Of a stretch of DNA of 64,000 nt, positions 44,985-64,000 are shown piece after piece. The stretch covers positions 22,474,501-22,538,500 of the forward strand of contig OX637409.1 of assembly GCA_951799425.1 (NCBI GenBank), in the 5' to 3' direction. The notes beneath the pieces were generated by a model. The model saw only the letters and a program-made list of their open reading frames with translations. It did no database searches and had not been told where the DNA came from. The translations under genes were made by a program, and so were the position numbers. Numbering within the stretch: position 1 is the first letter of the stretch; each line of letters starts with the position of its first letter. The stretch comes from Ilex aquifolium (taxonomy: Eukaryota > Streptophyta > Magnoliopsida > Aquifoliales > Aquifoliaceae).

Positions 44985-46037
44985 ATGCCAAGAGTCAAGC
45001 TTCCTGCCAGGAAGAACCCAAACACCCAAGAGCCAAATTTTATCGAAGAAGTGGTGGAGGTGAGAAAAGGAATGCCACCACTCACAAGGAGATACGACAA
45101 AACTCGGTTTCTCACAGCTCTAAAAGCAGACAGGTTTGAAAATTTCTAACAAAACAAAGCCATTGTTTGTGAAAGAGATGTGATTTTGGCTGATTTTGCG
45201 GAGTTGGGGATCTTTGCGGAGATGGAAAGAAGGGGGTGGTTGTTGTATTTGAGGAACGGCGGTGAGGCCGTAGTCGACTTGGTGCGGGAGTTTTACTCCA
45301 ACGCCGAGATCATCGAGGGGGAAATTCGAACTTATGTAAGGGGAGTCCATGTGGACGTTGATAAAGATTACATTTGGGGAGTAAGGCAAGAGGTGCCTTG
45401 GGTGCCAAATCCCGCTTATCCCCCAAGGAAGAATGTGGCGATGAATGAGGTGGGGAAGGAACTGACTGGAGTACCCAATTTTTTGTGGACTGGGAAGAAA
45501 TTTTTTAGACAAGGGGAGCTAAGTGACAAATACAAAATGTTAAACTTAATTGCGGTGTCAAATTTTGCTCCAATAGGAAGAAAAAATGAAGTTTTACCTG
45601 ACATGGCTCGGTTGTTGTATGCGATTGGAAAAGGGCAAAGCATTAATCTCCCCTCCCTAATTCTGACAGAAATGAAAAAAGGGTGTGATGTGAAGAGGAA
45701 TTCGCTTCCCTTCGGCACCCTAGTGACAGAACTATGCAAAGAACATGGGGTAAGGGTGAAGCCCGAGATGGAAATCCAAAAGCCAATGGGGCCACTGAAC
45801 AAGGCTTCCTTCCGGAGAAGCCAAAGTCATAGTGGCGGCCCAGCGGCAAGGCAAGAAGAGCCCCCGGCCCACGGAGTGGATGAGGTACAAGAGGAGCTTG
45901 ATGAGATGGAGAGAGAGATGGAGAGAGAGAGGGAGATCAGCCAGCAGAGGCGGGACCTAGCACCAGCACCCGACGCTCCTTATTGGACGTCATGCTTAGC
46001 ATTGAAGCTAAGCAGGATGAGATCCTTAGGCTTTTGA
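44985..46037 (+). pseudogene. ORF with plant transposon-associated domain, one in-frame stop
   Basis: From ATG 44985 the frame reads MPRVKLPARKNPNTQE and continues to TAA at 45147-45149. The same frame then continues to 46037. Past the stop it has ERDVILADFAELGIFAEMER, RGWLLYLRNGGEAVVDLVRE, FYSNAEIIEGEIRTYVRGV, GVPNFLWTGKKFFRQGELSD and ARLLYAIGKGQSINLPSLIL. I recognise this as the domain described as putative plant transposon protein, found as an extra ORF in many plant LTR elements. The C-terminus is a charged coiled-coil-like segment (EELDEMEREMEREREISQQR). The stop sits where Gln (CAA) would be after a single C-to-T change. Biochemical role unknown. Confidence 0.7.
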
Positions 46038-49857: not shown

Positions 49858-50884
49858 TCCACCATATGCCCCTTTCAGGTGGCAACCATCTAATCCAACC
49901 ACTTTCCTGCACCCTTGAAGAAATCCCCTCTTACATGTTGCAAGACATACATAAAACCTCTGAAATATAAGTTTACCATTTTCCTCATCACCAGGTGCAT
50001 CCAAGATAATTGTGGAACCAGGATTACTCCTCCTTAGTTCCTCACAGTAATCCCACAATCTACCATATTGTTCAATTTCATCACCATGTATCAACAACAT
50101 TGCCCTTTTCTTTGCTCTATACAATTGATTCCTTGATACATCAACATGAAAATCTCTCCTAACCCTCTTTTTAAAAGCCTTTGTAAGCCAACAAGGATTG
50201 ACCCTTAGTTCATCCATATACTTCAATGCTATCATCTTTGAGGTGACATTTCTGTTATTATAAGTTATCCCACATGTATGCTTACCAATGTATGTCTTTA
50301 TTTGGTATGTTTTCTCACCATGCACTCTACAAGCATAAACCAGCCAACTGCAACCCCCTTCACATTGTGCCCTCACCCTCCTCTTATCATTTTTTACTAA
50401 TTTCACATTTCTCTGATGTTTGATAGCATGTTGTCTAATGGCAGCCTTGATCTCATCAGATGTACTAAAAAACATACCCAGTTTAAAATGTGGGTATTCC
50501 TCATCATTTTCTGCCCTAAATACTTCAAATTTTTTATGTTTTCTTGCATGATTCTCTTCATCAGATGCACTGAAGCAGCTTAAAATCTCCTCAGAATCAC
50601 CATCTGTATCATTGAGTTCTAACTGTTGCCTTTTGTCTGTTGCTGTTTCTTTCTGCCTATTACTATTCAAACCAATCCATTCAGCTTCATTATCAACATA
50701 ACTATCATACAACATGTTATCATACTCACTTTCATAATCACTGTCAACCAACATATCATACTGACTAGATTCACAATCAGGTTGGTATTCATTGTCTAAT
50801 TTATCAGACTCTGATGCTACCCTTTTCCCTTTATCAACTGACACATCACCATCAGACTCCATTGTGATTCTTGTATAATAAGAT

Positions 50885-54700: not shown

Positions 54701-54745
54701 AAAGTGCACCTGTTGTTTAATTTACTCTGTTTGTAGTGTTTACAA
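51721..54745. other. Intergenic stretch, no recognised gene
   Basis: AT-rich. The open frame 53062-53304 ends in a hydrophobic stretch and starts beside a CCACAG acceptor-like site, but matches nothing I know. No mobile element with clear ends. Confidence 0.35.
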
Positions 54746-55088
54746 TGTTGGAATCTAGAGGACTATCACACACTCACCAAAAAAATAATGGAAGAGACTA
54801 TTGAAAATAGGAAGAACTATTTCTATTCATTCGTATTCAAATGGATGTATTACATAGGATATATATAGACTCTCATATATAATACATGATATACAAAATA
54901 ACTCCACTACATAATGCAATAATAAAAATAATAAAGACCCCACTCTTCCATTACTTGGAGAATTAAAATACTACAATTACTTTGTCCCCCACTAATACCA
55001 AATTGATGACCCACTAATACAAAAAATTAAATACATAAAAATAACTCCTAGAACATGAAAAGTCATGTTTATTATTATTTTTCCAACA
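54746..55088 (-). repeat. 3' LTR of the compact copia element
   Basis: Near-identical to 57357-57700, with roughly a dozen differences by eye. The PPT lies at its inner edge (plus strand TCCCCCCTT from 55089). Confidence 0.92.
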
Positions 55089-55095
55089 TCCCCCC

Positions 55096-57036
55096 TTAAA
55101 CATGATTTTTCTTCTCAACTCCAAGCAAACTTCTCAATTTGCAAAAAACATCCTCTTTGAGGGGCTTAGTGAAAATATCGACAATTTGATCTTGAGACTT
55201 CACAAACTTGAGCTCCACCTCTTTCTTGGTCATATACTCTCCAATGAAATGGAATCTTGTGTCAATATGCTTACTACGATCATGAAACACCGGATTCTTT
55301 GCCAACGCTAGTGCTGATTTGTTATCAATGAAGATCTCCGTCGATTCATCTTGAGGCAAATGAAGCTCCTTCAACAAATTTCTAAGCCAAAAGGCTTGAC
55401 AAACACATGATGTAGCCGCCACATACTTGGCTTCACAAGTCAAAAGAGTTACAATGGGTTGCTTCTTTGAACTCCAAGCAAATGCGGTATCTCCCATGAA
55501 GAAAACATACCCGGTAGTACTCTTTCTATCATCCATATCTCCGGCCCAATCATTATCACAATAACCCGCAAGCTTGGAATTGTTAGAACAAGAATATAGT
55601 AATCCATAATCAAATGTACATTTGATGTATCTAAGAATTCTTTTCGCCGCCTTCAAATGGGTCATGGTAGGAGCTTCCATATAGCGACTCACAAGACCAA
55701 CACCAAAAAGAATATCCGGTCTTGTGCATGTTAAGTATCTCAAGCTTCCCACTAGGCTCTTGAAATGGGTGGAATCCACATGCTCTCCATCTTCATATTT
55801 TGACAATTTTACACCACATTCAACGGGTGTGCATACCGGCTTACAATCTTGCATCTTGAATTTTGTCAAAATTACTTTAGCATAACCTTCTTGAGAGATG
55901 AAAATATCTTCCTTCATTTGCTTCACTTCAATGCCAAGGTAGTATGACATAAGCCCAATGTCGGTCATCTCAAATTCTTTAGTCATTGCTCTCTTAAAAT
56001 CTTCAAACATTCTTGGACAATTTCCTATATCACCATTATCATTCACCTTTGCATAAAGAGCATGTTTATGGGGACACTTGGTGAAATTATTTGTTTGAAA
56101 GTACTTGTCAAGTCTACTATTCCAAGCCCTTGGTGCTTGCTTCAAACCATACAAAGCCTTTTTTAATTTCAAGACTTTCTCTTCTTGCCCTTTCACAACA
56201 TAACCCAATGGTTGTTCAACATACACCTCTTCATCAAGAAAGCCATTCAAAAAAGCGAACTTTACATCCATTTGATGAATTTTCCAATCATTTAGATCGG
56301 CTAAAGAAATAACCAATCTAATTGTTTCCAAACGAGCAACGGGTGCAAATACCTCATCATAGTCAATACTTGGTCTTTGACTATAGCCTTTTGCAACCAA
56401 CCTTGCTTTGTACCTCTCCACTTCACCTTTGATATTTTTCTTTGTCTTGTACACCCACTTCACTCCAATGACCTTTTGTCCTCTAGGGAGTGTGGCAAGT
56501 TCTCATGTTCCATTCTTTTCAATAGCTTCAATTTCTTCATTCATGGCACTCTTCCACTTCTTGTCTTGTGCCGCTTTCTCATAGCCTATGGGATCACAAT
56601 CGGCAAATAGGCAAAATAGTGTTAGATCACTAAATCTTTGAGTTATCTCTTCGATTTTTTCATAGATATCTCGAAGACTCCTCATGCGAGGTGGCATTTC
56701 ACTTGAACTTGCTTCGGATGATGATGGAAATGCTTGCACATTGGTGGGTGATGGTGCAAGAGAATAAATGGGCAGCTCCATAATCTCATTGGGCTCCTCC
56801 TCTTCTTCAAAGAATGGGAAAAAATCATAGTCTTCTTGTGGGGTGTTCTAATTCCATTCATCTTCTTCATCAAACTGAACATCTCTACTAATGATTATCA
56901 TGTCATTGCTTGGGTTGTAAAGCTTGTAACCTTTGCTTCTTGAATCATAGCCAATGAAGACAAACTTTTCACTCTTGTCATCTAGTTTGGTCTGTTTCTC
57001 ATCCGGCACATGTGCATAGCATACACTTCCAAATAC
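55096..57036 (-). pseudogene. Copia pol remnant: integrase tail, RT without active site, RNase H
   Basis: One frame on the minus strand, interrupted by TAG near 56848 and TGA near 56504. Both stand at positions where Trp is expected (EWN-stop-NTPQ; NGT-stop-ELATLP). It starts [20 protein letters not shown], the end of integrase. It continues with the RT fingers and palm ([50 protein letters not shown]). After [13 protein letters not shown] it jumps to [13 protein letters not shown]. The segment that normally carries the YVDD catalytic Asp pair is therefore gone without loss of frame. RNase H ([24 protein letters not shown] block, [20 protein letters not shown]) runs to a normal C-terminus. 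Confidence 0.92.
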
Positions 57037-57040
57037 CTGC

Positions 57041-57347
57041 ACCCCCAAACCCTTTTCTCTCTCTCCTACACGTCCACCGCGTTCCAGAAATGCCGCCGAA
57101 GTTTGACCCATCCCAAGTCGTGGACGTCTACGTTCGGGTCACCGGCGGGGAAGTCGGTGCCGCCAGTTCCCTGGCCCCGAAAATCGGTCCACTTGGTCAA
57201 TCGCCAAAGAAAATCGGTGAAGACATTCCAAAAGAGACCGCCAAGGACTGGAAAAGCCTGCGTGTCACCGTCAAGCTCACCATCCAGAATCGACAGGCCA
57301 AGGTGTTCGTCGTCCCCTCCGTCGCGGCTCTGGTCATCAAAGCTCTA
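57041..57347 (+). pseudogene. RPL12: Captured fragment of cytosolic 60S ribosomal protein L12 (uL11), antisense in the copia element
   Basis: ATG at 57090 opens [20 protein letters not shown], then [27 protein letters not shown] and [11 protein letters not shown]. This is the N-terminal 86 residues of plant RPL12 (normally about 166). About 50 bp of C/T-rich 5' leader precede it. It carries a few unusual residues (Gln for Leu in GPLGQSP, Pro for Ala in EDIPKE, Phe for Thr in KVFVVPS) but no frameshift. At its 3' end the coding sequence fuses with the element's primer-binding site. The open frame continues into the LTR to 57479. On the plus strand it lies opposite to the element's own transcript. 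There is no evidence of expression. Confidence 0.93.
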
Positions 57348-57353
57348 ATACCA
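57342..57353 (-). other. Primer-binding site of the compact copia element
   Basis: The minus strand reads TGGTATTAGAGC, one base from the initiator-Met complement TGGTATCAGAGC. Its last six bases are shared with the captured L12 sequence. Confidence 0.8.
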
Positions 57354-57356
57354 CTT

Positions 57357-57700
57357 TGTTGGAATCTAGATGACTATCACACACTCACCAAAAAAATAAT
57401 GGAAGAGACTATTGAAGTTAGGAAGAACTCTTTCTATTCACTCATATTCAAATGGATGTATTACAGAGTATATATATAGACTCTCATATATAACACATGA
57501 CATACAAAATAACCTCACTACATAATGCAATAATAAAAATAATAAAGACCCCACTCCTCCATTACTTGGAGAATTAAAATACCATAATTATTTTGTCCCC
57601 CATTAATACCAAATTGATGACTCACTAATACAAAAAAATTAAATGCATAAAAAAAACTCCTAGAACATGAAAAGTCAGGTTTATTCTTATTTTTCCAACA
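57357..57700 (-). repeat. 5' LTR of the compact copia element
   Basis: 344 bp, direct copy of 54746-55088. The outer edge is followed by TACAA. Confidence 0.92.
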
Positions 57701-57806
57701 TACAAGTCAAAGATGCATTATTTTTGTATTCAACTTACAGTATGCAAGATTGTCTTTATCTTTGAGGCTCTCATACTTGTCATCTTGCAAAAGAACTGCA
57801 CAAACT

Positions 57807-59147
57807 TTATGCTTCCCTAACTAGCTGCACCAATTTCTTCACCGCCAGATCTACCTCTTCATCACCTTTCCCTCTCATCCTCTCACTCAATTCCTTAACC
57901 TTCTTCCTCACTTCTCTCCCTTCTTCCTCCACTACCACTTCATTGATCACCTTTGCCACCTCCTCCCTGTTGAACCTTCCATTCTCTCTCTTCACCTCCA
58001 TGCCTATGCCAATCTCCACTACTAACTTGGCATTCAAGGGTTGGTCTATATGCATAGGCATGGCTACGATTGGAACACCAAACATCACACCCTCCAGTGT
58101 TGAACTCCACCCACAGTGACTCACAAAGCCACCTATGCCAGAATGTCCTAATATCTTTGCTTGTGGGGCCCACCCTTCTAGTACCATGCCTCTCTCTTCT
58201 ACCCTTTCTTGGAAGCCTTCTGGTAAGGCTTCATCTAATCTAATTCTCTCTCCTCCATGAAACCTTACAACCCATATGAAACTCACCTTGCTGAGCTCTA
58301 ATCCATAAGCTATCTCTTCTATCTCTTCCTTTGAAAGAAAATACTCACTTCCAAAAGAGACAAACACAACTGAAGAAGCCTCTTGTTTGCTCAGCCACTC
58401 CATGATAACTGTATCTTCATCTTTGTTTTTAGGGTCCTGAAGAAGAGGCCCCACAGTAACCATCTCTTTTCCCGTCAAAACTGACAAATAATCGATATAC
58501 TTTGCCTCAATTTCTCTCGATGTCTTAGTCAACACGATGCTCGAAGATCTTGCCAAGCATCCTAGGTACCTTTCCTTGTCTGGGACACCATTTGAGATGT
58601 TATACATAAACCCAATAAATTTCTGGCGCTCCATTTCAGGGAACTCGAATGCCGGAAAAGGATATTCCAAAACAGGATTCTCAAAGAAATGATTGAGAAA
58701 AGCACAAGTCGACGCACCAAAAGTTAAGAAAAGAACTGCATCAATGTTTTCTTCACGAGCCACTTCGGGTACCCATGGCTGTAAGAAATCATAGATGACT
58801 AAGTTTGGTTTGAATGTTGTGAGTATGTTACAAAAGTCAGGTTTGGCTGCGTCAAAGGTGGTTTTGAGGTCGGACATGAGGTGGGGTGGGAGAACTTTGG
58901 TGGTGTGGAAGTGAGGAGGGAGTTCTGGGGAGGAAGGAAGGTGGATATCTATGAGTTGTATTGAAGGAAAGAGTTGGCCGGAGAGAAGGGTTTTTCTGAT
59001 AGGTTTTAGATTGATGGGTGTGGAGCAAAGATATACATGGAAATTTCTCTCTGCAAGTCTCTTGGCTAGCTCTAAGAATGGTGATATGTGGCCATAAGCT
59101 AACCATGGTAGCATCAGAACACTGGGACTGTGTTGTTTAGAAGCCAT
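57807..59147 (-). CDS. UDP-glycosyltransferase, UGT94/UGT91-like, intronless
   Basis: 446 residues from ATG at 59147, a complete family-1 plant glycosyltransferase. The catalytic His is His20 in WLAYGHISPFLELAK and the partner Asp is Asp120 in VIYDFLQPW. The 44-residue PSPG sugar-nucleotide box runs from WAPQAKILGHSGIGG (326) to MPMHIDQ (369). The box includes HCGWSSTLEG and ends in Gln, typical of UDP-glucose users. VVFVSFGSEYFLSKEE and the whole N-terminus (LCSTPINLKPI; LPPHFHTTKVLPPHLM) resemble UGT94 enzymes that add glucose to the sugar of flavonoid, apocarotenoid or triterpene glucosides. Cytosolic. Acceptor cannot be told from sequence. Two TTGAC cores (59328-59338) lie about 185 bp upstream, possible WRKY sites. 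The compact copia element begins about 100 bp past the stop. Confidence 0.94.
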   Translation of the reverse strand: MASKQHSPSVLMLPWLAYGHISPFLELAKRLAERNFHVYLCSTPINLKPIRKTLLSGQLFPSIQLIDIHLPSSPELPPHFHTTKVLPPHLMSDLKTTFDAAKPDFCNILTTFKPNLVIYDFLQPWVPEVAREENIDAVLFLTFGASTCAFLNHFFENPVLEYPFPAFEFPEMERQKFIGFMYNISNGVPDKERYLGCLARSSSIVLTKTSREIEAKYIDYLSVLTGKEMVTVGPLLQDPKNKDEDTVIMEWLSKQEASSVVFVSFGSEYFLSKEEIEEIAYGLELSKVSFIWVVRFHGGERIRLDEALPEGFQERVEERGMVLEGWAPQAKILGHSGIGGFVSHCGWSSTLEGVMFGVPIVAMPMHIDQPLNAKLVVEIGIGMEVKRENGRFNREEVAKVINEVVVEEEGREVRKKVKELSERMRGKGDEEVDLAVKKLVQLVREA

Positions 59148-60760
59148 GATCAATTTCTCTCTAGATCTGTGGAAGGTGAATTTGTCTATGATTTGTTTGA
59201 GATAGAGATGAAAGTTTTGATGGCAAAAGAGATGGGAAGATTAGTAAATGCTTGGACAGGAAGTGGGAGAATATGTGGTTTTGGTTTTGCTGACGGCTTT
59301 TGTTGAAATTTTCTTAGTTTGGCTGGCTTGACTTTGACTATCCTACACAAGTACAAGTGCAAAACTAAAAGCTTTCGGTCTCCAGACATAAATTATTCGA
59401 ATTTGAAACAAATTAAGTAATTATTCAAAAAAACTTTATCAGATTATCAGATTCGGATCAGACTTTTAAAATCGAATTCAGATTCAGATCAATTAGAATT
59501 CGATTCAAACTCGATTCGTTAGACATACCTACTATCTAGTGGTTGGTTCAGTGGCAAGTCTACACATCGTGTAGCCAAGAAAAAACTCAAATTTTTTTAT
59601 TAACATTTGAGTTTGAATTTTTACGGTTATGAGTCTTATAAGTTATAATAGTTTGGTGGAGCTAAACTAATTATTCAATGTCTAAAATACGTGATAGGAC
59701 CTTAGTTTTGATCTGACATAAATACGATAAATCTCTCACGTATAATTGTGTAATCCTAATAACAGATATGTAAAATGACTTATTTGTACATTAAAAAACT
59801 TCTATAGCTCTAATTCTTGGGTTAAAAAACTTTAGACTAATGTAATTTAAAAACAATTGGGTGGGGGCTATAATTAGATTGGCTGTCACCCAATTTGATA
59901 AAGTTAAAAGGATAGGTTCGTTTCAAATTGTCTACTGCTTTTACAAAGAAGATCGGTAAAAATTAGGAGTTTAAAAAAATTCATTTTATTGTAAATTTAC
60001 AAATTTAATGTACTTCTTGAGTATAAGAAATTTTATTGACATAAATAAATCTTAATATCTTATCCTTCCAAAAATAATTAGAAAAATTCTCCAACTAGAG
60101 AAATGAGAGAAAAGCCAAACCTCAATTTAAATTCGGGTGGGCTATTTTCACCCACAAAACTTTCTTCCTCCTCGCCTTATGTTTTAACTCTATCTCATTA
60201 AAAAGTCTTGTTTGGATGACGGTCATATTCGATTGGTTACATTCTTAAAATTTTAAATTATCATATTTGGATAGTCAATTAATTGATAATTTAAATCGAA
60301 AAAAAGATTATTAATGTGATCAAATTTTCAAAAAATGATGGGTATCCTAAACTCGTGGGCAATAGTTGTAATCTCATTCTGATATTATAAAAAATGAATG
60401 AAATACCAAAATTAACCTCATTTCCAAAATTCAATTTAAATTACAACCAAAGTCCCTTCCAAAAATCAAGTCCTTACCAAAATTAAATTCATTAGTCCAA
60501 AACAATTATAAAATATTAAGTAATCCCCGTTTTAGATTATTAGCAATGACCAAACACTAAATAAGAGATTATCATGATAACTAAAATCTAGGTATCTCAT
60601 TACTAGGAATAAGATATCATAAACGGGGCCTTAATGTTCGTTTACCACTTAAAAATATATTGCTTAATACTCTTTTATGAACAGCAAAGACTTATCCTCT
60701 CTTAACTTTCTTTATTAACTCTTTTTCTTCTTCTTAATATCCATAAGAATTTAATATTAT
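59148..60760. other. UGT upstream region and intergenic stretch
   Basis: It holds the presumed UGT promoter (59148-59400). Phrases GATTCAGATCAATTAGAATT and TTCGATTCAAACTCGATTCG near 59470-59520 are repeat-derived. The block 60210-60640 has MITE-like composition without clear ends. No gene recognised. Confidence 0.35.
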
Positions 60761-62640: not shown

Positions 62641-63535
62641 ATTAGAAAATTAGTAAAAAAAAACATGCACCTGAAAGAATGATCCAAGCTGATTCTTTTT
62701 GTTGAACTGTTGCAGATATGTGAAGAGTAGTATTCCAACCAACCAATGCTCAAAATTTTCATAGGTGACAAATACAAATGTGTTATTGGTTAACTATGTT
62801 AGGCCTAGTATTCGTCTTAGGGAAAAATCAATTTGGTGAAGAGACATCTTTTTTTTTTTTTGAGCAGTAAACTGAAAATTCATTCAACTAGGAAAAAGAT
62901 TATTACAATCAGAATATGAGAAAGCCTTTAACTCGAGTGGGAGACAGCTGACCCAACTCAAAGGAAGAGAATTGGTTTAACAGATGCTGCTACCCAATTA
63001 ACTGTCCTATTATGGGCACTTGGCTTATGTAAAAAACTTAAATGATTTTGCATACTGCATAGTTCTTGATGTCTTTCAAGAAGACGTGGATTTGTCATGG
63101 TGGTACTCATTCTGTTGAGCTGAGTTTGATAACCTCAGTATTATCACACTCAATAGTAGCCTGCTAGCAGGCAGGCTTGCCATATTGCAGCTGCTTCGGC
63201 ATACAAACTTGATACTATCGGTATATTTTTGGCTATGAAGATGTCCTGAAAAAGGAAGCCCATTCTGGAAGAGGGAGGGCCCAGTGAAGATTCTAACCCA
63301 ATAAAGAAACAGAGGGGAGCAACTAAATCAAGAGAGATATTACTGAGTCTCCTTTCCCCTTCTCAGCTAGGGCTCAATGTTCCCCCAAATTGAGTAAGAA
63401 GATAGAGCAGAAAGCAAAACTCAGCAAGGAATCAACAGAGGTACCCTAAAAGATGAGAAAGAGACAACCTCTTGGTTCATTAAAGAACAAACATAAAAAT
63501 TGTCACACAACACATTTTATCAGACACGCATATAC
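62641..63535. other. Intergenic stretch
   Basis: Fragments such as GATGTCTTTCAAGAAGACGT and CAAACTTGATACTATCGGTA hint at an old retrotransposon, but no frame is open. Nothing firm. Confidence 0.3.
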
Positions 63536-63539
63536 CTTT

Positions 63540-63660
63540 TTTTTTTTAACCATTAGTGTGCTTAAACTAACTTACGCACATCTCGATTAATCTCTTTTCT
63601 AGTCTGATCAAAAACAAATCATCCTCGCCGGAACTACTTTTAAAATTTCATACTCCAATA
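63540..63660 (-). mobile_element. SINE-like retroposon, family A (minus)
   Basis: On the minus strand GGCGAGGATGATTTGTTTTT, ATCAGACTAGAAAAGAGATT and ATCGAGATGTGCGTAAGTTA are followed by an A tract (T10 at 63538-63548). Head truncated. Confidence 0.5.
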
Positions 63661-64000
63661 CCAAACTTCTCTTTATCCGTACTGTAGACAAGCTCCTCAC
63701 TTAAATTGGATTGAGATGGTTTATCCAAGTACAATCTAGATTCTTAAAACCTATGTCCAAATATTAGATATGGGAAAATATTTATACTTATAAGGGTACC
63801 AGTAAACACTATCAGATGGTATACATCATACACAAAATAAATAATATGCATTCACATACAAAAAATTGTACATTGTTAAAAAATGTACATATAAAATATT
63901 AAACATTTCCATGTGTCTGATAAAATGTGTTGTGCGATAATTTTTCATTGGTTCTAAATACCACATGGTAATGTCCCGCGATACCTTGCAAACACCGAAT
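63661..64000. other. Window end, intergenic
   Basis: A phrase ACACAACACATTTTATCAGA near 63508 recurs inverted near 63910-63935 (CTGATAAAATGTGTTGTG). This suggests an inverted-repeat element of about 430 bp spanning 63500-63940 and enclosing the SINE copy. No gene. Confidence 0.35.

Follow-up and report, generated by a model that had tools for sequence, protein, structure and literature searches.

An antisense RPL12 fragment beside the primer-binding site of a Copia retrotransposon: possible capture by plus-strand strong-stop DNA

A Copia LTR retrotransposon in the genome of Ilex aquifolium carries, directly against its primer-binding site (PBS), a piece of the gene for ribosomal protein L12 (RPL12, uL11) that runs antisense to the element. 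This raises the question of how the fragment came to lie in this place and in this orientation, as genes transduced by LTR elements are usually found in the sense of gag-pol according to one review (PMC7264820). The element occupies 54746-57700 on the minus strand (2,955 bp) of the window, the whole 64,000-nt stretch of DNA analysed here (G000:C19:22474501-22538500 of an 800-Mb assembly). An initial annotation, made from the letters of the window, had proposed such an element with such a fragment, and Pfam and DNA matches, both LTRs and a TACAA duplication bear this out.

The two copies of the target-site duplication TACAA were read directly at 54741..54745 and 57701..57705. Between them lie the 3' LTR (54746..55088, minus strand) and the 5' LTR (57357..57700, minus strand), which align as a pair at 93.3% identity and both have TG...CA ends; the alignments overrun these ends by one base, the next base being T on both sides. 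Adjoining the 3' LTR is a polypurine tract, AAGGGGGGA on the minus strand (55089..55097, read directly), followed by a reverse transcriptase (RT)/RNase H remnant whose longest open stretch spans 55099..56502 (minus strand; RVT_2, E 2.8e-71). This pol remnant is broken, with two in-frame stops within 55109-57036. The C-terminal tail of integrase, with its SH3-like domain (56851..57041, minus strand; SH3_retrovirus, E 3.2e-28), is native-like up to the GCA at 57039-57041. At the other end, a 3-nt spacer (57354..57356, minus strand, read directly) separates the 5' LTR from the 12-nt PBS, TGGTATTAGAGC (57342..57353, minus strand), which is complementary to initiator tRNA-Met at 11 of 12 positions. 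Read in its own direction, the element consists of spacer, PBS, antisense RPL12 piece, integrase SH3 tail, RT and polypurine tract. The similar LTR pair with TG...CA ends and a 5-bp target duplication, the position of integrase upstream of an RVT_2-type RT with both on the minus strand, and the PBS for initiator tRNA-Met are those of a Copia element. Where RPL12 sits, 2.1 kb comprising the leader, gag, protease and most of integrase is missing: the interval from PBS to integrase is 308 bp here vs. 2114-2164 bp in 12 other copies, confirming the earlier proposal that gag, protease and most of integrase had been replaced. Rfam and tRNA scans over the 64,000-nt window found nothing. About 100 bp from the element is the stop codon of a UDP-glycosyltransferase gene in the same orientation (57807-59153, minus strand; 448-aa frame, UDPGT E 3.2e-20), so that transcripts reading through from this gene would run into the 5' LTR and on into the antisense RPL12.

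The captured fragment covers 308 bp at 57039..57346 on the plus strand and consists of a partial 5' UTR, with the ATG at 57090, and 85 codons plus 2 nt; codon 86 is finished by letters of the PBS, not of the donor. The fragment had initially been placed at 57037-57356 and credited with the first 86 codons of L12. The 5' leader and the codons are indeed present, but the part that matches the donor is shorter at both ends, with the PBS at 57342-57353 and the LTR starting at 57357, and the donor accounts for 85 codons and 2 nt. A Pfam match to Ribosomal_L11_N on 57090-57476 (E 2.8e-17) establishes the L12 identity. Searching the assembly with the fragment as DNA returned six places, the fragment itself included, and a protein search returned the identical six. 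The best match besides itself is an RPL12 gene on contig 9 (G000:C9:10634305-10634613), identical at 295/309 positions (95%), and the genome-wide search for a donor that had been suggested was thus successful. This gene has an intact 166-aa frame and no introns and continues as an ordinary gene beyond both junction points; no match to element sequence was found within 1.5 kb of it, and the donor therefore lies outside the element, as expected for a host gene. The other matches are three intact RPL12 genes at 80-85% identity and one broken copy at 76% (L006, G000:C14:14562562-14562740), which is disrupted by a TAG stop and by an insertion of 6 bases. Chance similarity to L12, named in the initial annotation as one finding that would overturn it, is excluded by the DNA matches to the donor together with the Pfam domain, and a chimera with the donor made during assembly is unlikely, because fragment and donor differ at 12 coding positions.

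As regards intron loss and a poly(A) tail, the marks of mRNA retroposition, the fragment ends at codon 86 and the donor has no introns. The comparison of intron content proposed earlier could be made, but since the donor is intronless it does not separate an mRNA from a DNA template. The fragment starts ~40 nt downstream of a TATATCA motif in the donor. With the usual spacing between TATA box and start site, which we used to place the cap, this would be about 10 nt inside the donor transcript, the start site being predicted. Ribosomal-protein mRNAs are abundant. On the plus strand, an open frame of 129 aa (57090-57479) joins the 86 L12-like codons to 43 codons derived from the antisense PBS and LTR; we read it as a by-product.

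Both junctions show short overlaps. On the PBS side the sequence is CCTAGCTCTGATACCA in the nearest native copy and CATCAAAGCTCTCAAAG in the donor, and the window crosses from one to the other within the six letters AGCTCT (57341..57346). A shared GCTCTA had been reported here; an overlap does exist, but its letters are AGCTCT, with the donor reading GCTCTC and most native copies AGCTCTG at the junction. The chance of an overlap of at least 6 nt at a random joint is ~0.0013, assuming equal base use. Counted into the PBS, the joint falls at 7-13 nt, which takes in the 12-nt point. On the integrase side, where the overlap is GCA (57039-57041) or CCGCA (57037..57041), the native sequence is CCCGCA in 9 of 11 copies, with CCTGCA and CCCACA in one copy each, and the donor has GCCGCA vs. 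CCTGCA in the window. In the present sequence this overlap is 3 nt; it would be 5 nt if T57038 was originally a C. Its chance is ~0.05 to 0.005 for 3-5 nt. Microsimilarities of this kind, here 6 nt and 3-5 nt, characterise LTR-mediated retroposition, and the earlier claims of capture by an LTR element, homology at the PBS-side junction and integration of the chimera are all supported.

As for the primer, an 18-nt end of the tRNA has eight exact matches in the genome; four were fetched, and three of these are tRNA-Met genes with anticodon CAT. We take this CAT-anticodon tRNA, which matches the PBS, to be the initiator tRNA-Met. In the fourth (L082, G000:C8:24114030-24114140), the tRNA-Met 3' end with CCA directly follows 55 T; a tRNA-gene scan of this locus made no call, and it looks like a reverse-transcribed tRNA end or the PBS region of an element. 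With CCA added, the tRNA 3' end pairs with two native PBSs over 12/12 nt and then meets a mismatch, compared with 11/12 for the window. The difference in the window is at 57347, with A for G; copies L051 and L069 also have A, and we read it as a later mutation. Directly beyond the PBS, 57341 is A, following the donor and the native element, and because the tRNA has G at this position, the tRNA was copied over at most 12 nt, barring a later change at 57341.

Is the fragment a property of this one copy or of a subfamily? A search with the integrase tail gave 209 candidates. The 40 that were scored each match over at least 532/537 bases; 11 of these 40 were inspected beyond the integrase junction, and all 11 run on into integrase. 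Searches with the LTR and PBS gave 288 candidates and, for a second query, 295 (40 scored in each case), and the PBS side was inspected in 43 other copies (3 + 20 + 20). The native leader is present in 43/43 of these PBS-bearing copies, several of which have an altered PBS; one, L045 (G000:C2:56964015-56964185), has an expanded CT repeat in the leader beside the PBS. Copies beyond the scored ones were covered by the L12 searches, and no second L12-bearing element is among the six DNA and six protein matches to L12 in the whole assembly. Further copies sharing the junction, which had been anticipated, were found neither in the L12 searches nor among the 43 copies inspected. On the L12 searches and the 43 native copies, read from lists of 40 scored, we reject inheritance of the capture from an older L12-bearing subfamily. 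The initial annotation had also held that the element transposed after capture: one integration is evident, but the searches revealed L12 joined to the element nowhere else. Two 100-kb stretches of contig 19 (200 kb in all), one adjoining the window and one at 12.0 Mb, contained no copy of the element, and a search of viral contigs for a relative found none.

The LTRs differ at 22 of 344 aligned sites, a divergence of 0.067 or 0.034 per side. Substitution rates of 1.3e-8 and 7e-9 give insertion ages of ~2.6 and 4.8 million years, respectively. Of the 12 coding differences between fragment and donor, 11 could be polarised with the paralogue on contig 15 and one is ambiguous. Because 11/11 fall on the fragment side, the contig-9 gene is the source, and the fragment has decayed since capture. 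Of three differences counted in the 5' UTR, where a one-base gap makes the alignment unsure, one belongs to the fragment, one to the donor and one is ambiguous. Six of the 11 polarised coding changes alter an amino acid, which is not significantly below the neutral expectation (P 0.14 to 0.31), and with this neutral pattern of substitution a selected protein is rejected. Counting 12 fragment-side substitutions, the ratio of the fragment rate to the LTR rate is 1.22 (95% CI 0.55-2.57, a low-power test), and it spans 1.12 to 1.42 if 11 to 14 substitutions are counted. These values fit a fragment about as old as the insertion, with capture at insertion time, and disfavour a repair much later than the insertion.

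How, then, was an antisense copy made? The initial annotation had invoked a template switch near the site where reverse transcription initiates. However, a minus strand that switches onto an mRNA would yield the gene in the sense of the element. The sense orientation usual for mRNA retroposition is not what is seen here; the fragment is antisense, and the copying must therefore have been done by the plus strand, or from an antisense template. In the yeast element Ty3, the first plus strand ends after 12 nt of the primer tRNA have been copied, and this dead-end strong-stop DNA builds up in particles, while normal completion depends on a plus strand made later and ending at U5, and not on the dead-end DNA (PMC5371799). 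We therefore lean, with a modest degree of confidence, towards a defective Copia element in which plus-strand strong-stop DNA used a host mRNA as the bridge to a complete cDNA; from the observed anatomy we infer the order of the strand events and the use of RNA as the template for RPL12. The strong-stop DNA would begin at the polypurine tract, extend through the LTR and spacer into 12 nt of the primer tRNA, and end in ...AGAGC. Missing the minus strand that reaches the PBS, this end would instead pair with GCUCU at codons 85-86 of the RPL12 mRNA, and RT would run along the mRNA towards its 5' end for ~308 nt, to ~10 nt from the predicted cap. Because the plus strand did the copying, RPL12 would become antisense to the element. 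The new 3' end would then pair, through GCA or CCGCA, with a minus strand halted in integrase, and filling in of both strands would give an LTR-to-LTR DNA without gag, protease and most of integrase. This chimera would have integrated once, at TACAA beside the UDP-glycosyltransferase gene, and decayed afterwards. As an inference from one event, the scheme covers the orientation, the joint at the PBS, the loss from gag to integrase, the end near the cap and an abundant donor mRNA. Against it, the intronless donor leaves the RNA template unproven, two switches or one bridging step are required for what is a single event, the 12-nt stop is reported for yeast Ty elements and not for plant Copia, and the integrase overlap is perhaps just 3 nt, expected by chance in ~5% of cases.

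The main rival of plus-strand capture is break repair, in which an inserted copy of normal length would have been broken, lost 2.1 kb and been filled by end joining with 308 bp of the contig-9 RPL12, in either orientation at random. Templated insertions at breaks are documented (PMC11724301, PMC10923293), the microhomology at the two junctions is as compatible with end joining as with template switching, the intronless donor makes a DNA template possible, and the fragment was found in a single place. Nevertheless we consider such a repair rather unlikely: one of its breakpoints would coincide by chance with the 7-nt stretch containing the 12-nt PBS end, for which a post hoc estimate, allowing for two breakpoints, is 14 of ~4,100 internal positions. 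The filler, too, would by chance derive from transcribed sequence of a highly expressed gene, beginning near the predicted 5' end of the transcript, and in age the fragment seems to match the insertion and not to be younger, although the rate ratio is a weak test (CI 0.55-2.57). The same product could also arise from two standard overlap-aided switches of the minus strand, which would jump in integrase to an antisense RPL12 RNA, or to first-strand cDNA in the same particle, and return at the PBS. While LTR-mediated retroposition by microsimilarity has been described (PMC5408686), this route requires an antisense RPL12 template within the particle and leaves unexplained both the return at the 12-nt end of the PBS and the start of the fragment near the predicted mRNA 5' end, and it strikes us as improbable.

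The antisense orientation could instead reflect function, by analogy with Pxyfem of Plutella xylostella, in which a reverse-complement PxyMasc is fused to ORF fragments of an LTR element, with a 4-nt microsimilarity at one joint (PMC9674220). A putative antisense RNA, made from the element or by read-through from the UDP-glycosyltransferase gene, would then tune the RPL12 mRNA as Pxyfem does PxyMasc. The fragment runs antisense to the element and, in the element's orientation, is preceded by the gene, and 78/288 of its 21-mers are exact in the donor, the longest run being 51 nt. However, only 3, 0 and 0 of the 288 are common to the three other intact RPL12 genes, and the fragment decays freely, all 11 polarised coding changes being on its side and 6/11 altering amino acids; such a domestication we regard as very improbable. 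Pxyfem also differs in being multicopy, lacking recognisable LTRs and making silencing RNAs in the published account (PMC9674220), whereas the LTRs and target duplication of the window element are intact.

Capture of host genes by plant LTR elements is itself known, from maize Bs1 and from surveys in rice and sorghum (PMC13317346), and what is unusual here is the antisense form anchored at the PBS. Like the window element, Bs1 is a plant LTR retroelement carrying host gene fragments, namely segments of ATPase, xylan endohydrolase and glucanase genes in a chimeric gene that is transcribed and translated (PMC13317346); the window element has one antisense fragment abutting the PBS, was found as a single copy and is decayed. 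The main text of the rice and sorghum survey, by word search, does not mention orientation (PMC3726574). In LTR-mediated retroposition, part of an mRNA likewise enters the element cDNA at short microsimilarities and integrates, and the published model places the switch during cDNA synthesis begun at the PBS, before the second strand (PMC5408686); by our reasoning this model should therefore give sense copies, whereas the window copy is antisense with its joint at the 12-nt PBS end. The complex grass LTR elements of Sabot and Schulman, products of abnormal template switching, share a two-template cDNA, a single integration and a target duplication, but both of their templates are retrotransposon RNAs (PMC1950507). 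Grande, RIRE2 and Retand have an open frame antisense to pol; it sits between pol and the 3' LTR, is shared by all or most members of each family and, as reviewed, has no known host-gene source (PMC7264820). In searches of the open-access literature, we found neither a description of an antisense host fragment abutting the PBS nor plus-strand strong-stop DNA named as the capturing end.

More generally, it is quite possible that dead-end plus-strand strong-stop DNA is a standing gateway for host sequences, its PBS end priming on mRNAs, being extended towards their caps and leaving antisense fragments welded to the PBS. If so, the window would hold a genomic fossil of an intermediate described from yeast particles, and would suggest that plant Copia elements stop at the tRNA position seen in yeast. 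The capture models consulted here have host RNA copied during first-strand synthesis and predict genes in the sense of the element. An antisense gene joined to the PBS where it was copied from tRNA points to another route of capture, through the plus strand. The signature of a 12-nt PBS followed by an antisense 5' exon could separate the two routes genome-wide and reveal plus-strand stops in plants.

Elsewhere in the window, the frame at 26583-27560 matches glycosyl hydrolase 17, that at 45180-46034 the plant transposon protein Transposase_32, and that at 49858-50862 a MuDR-type DNA-binding domain. Finally, an inverted repeat of 54 nt (63495-63548 and 63892-63945), with arms 78% complementary and 343 nt apart, is possibly a small DNA transposon.
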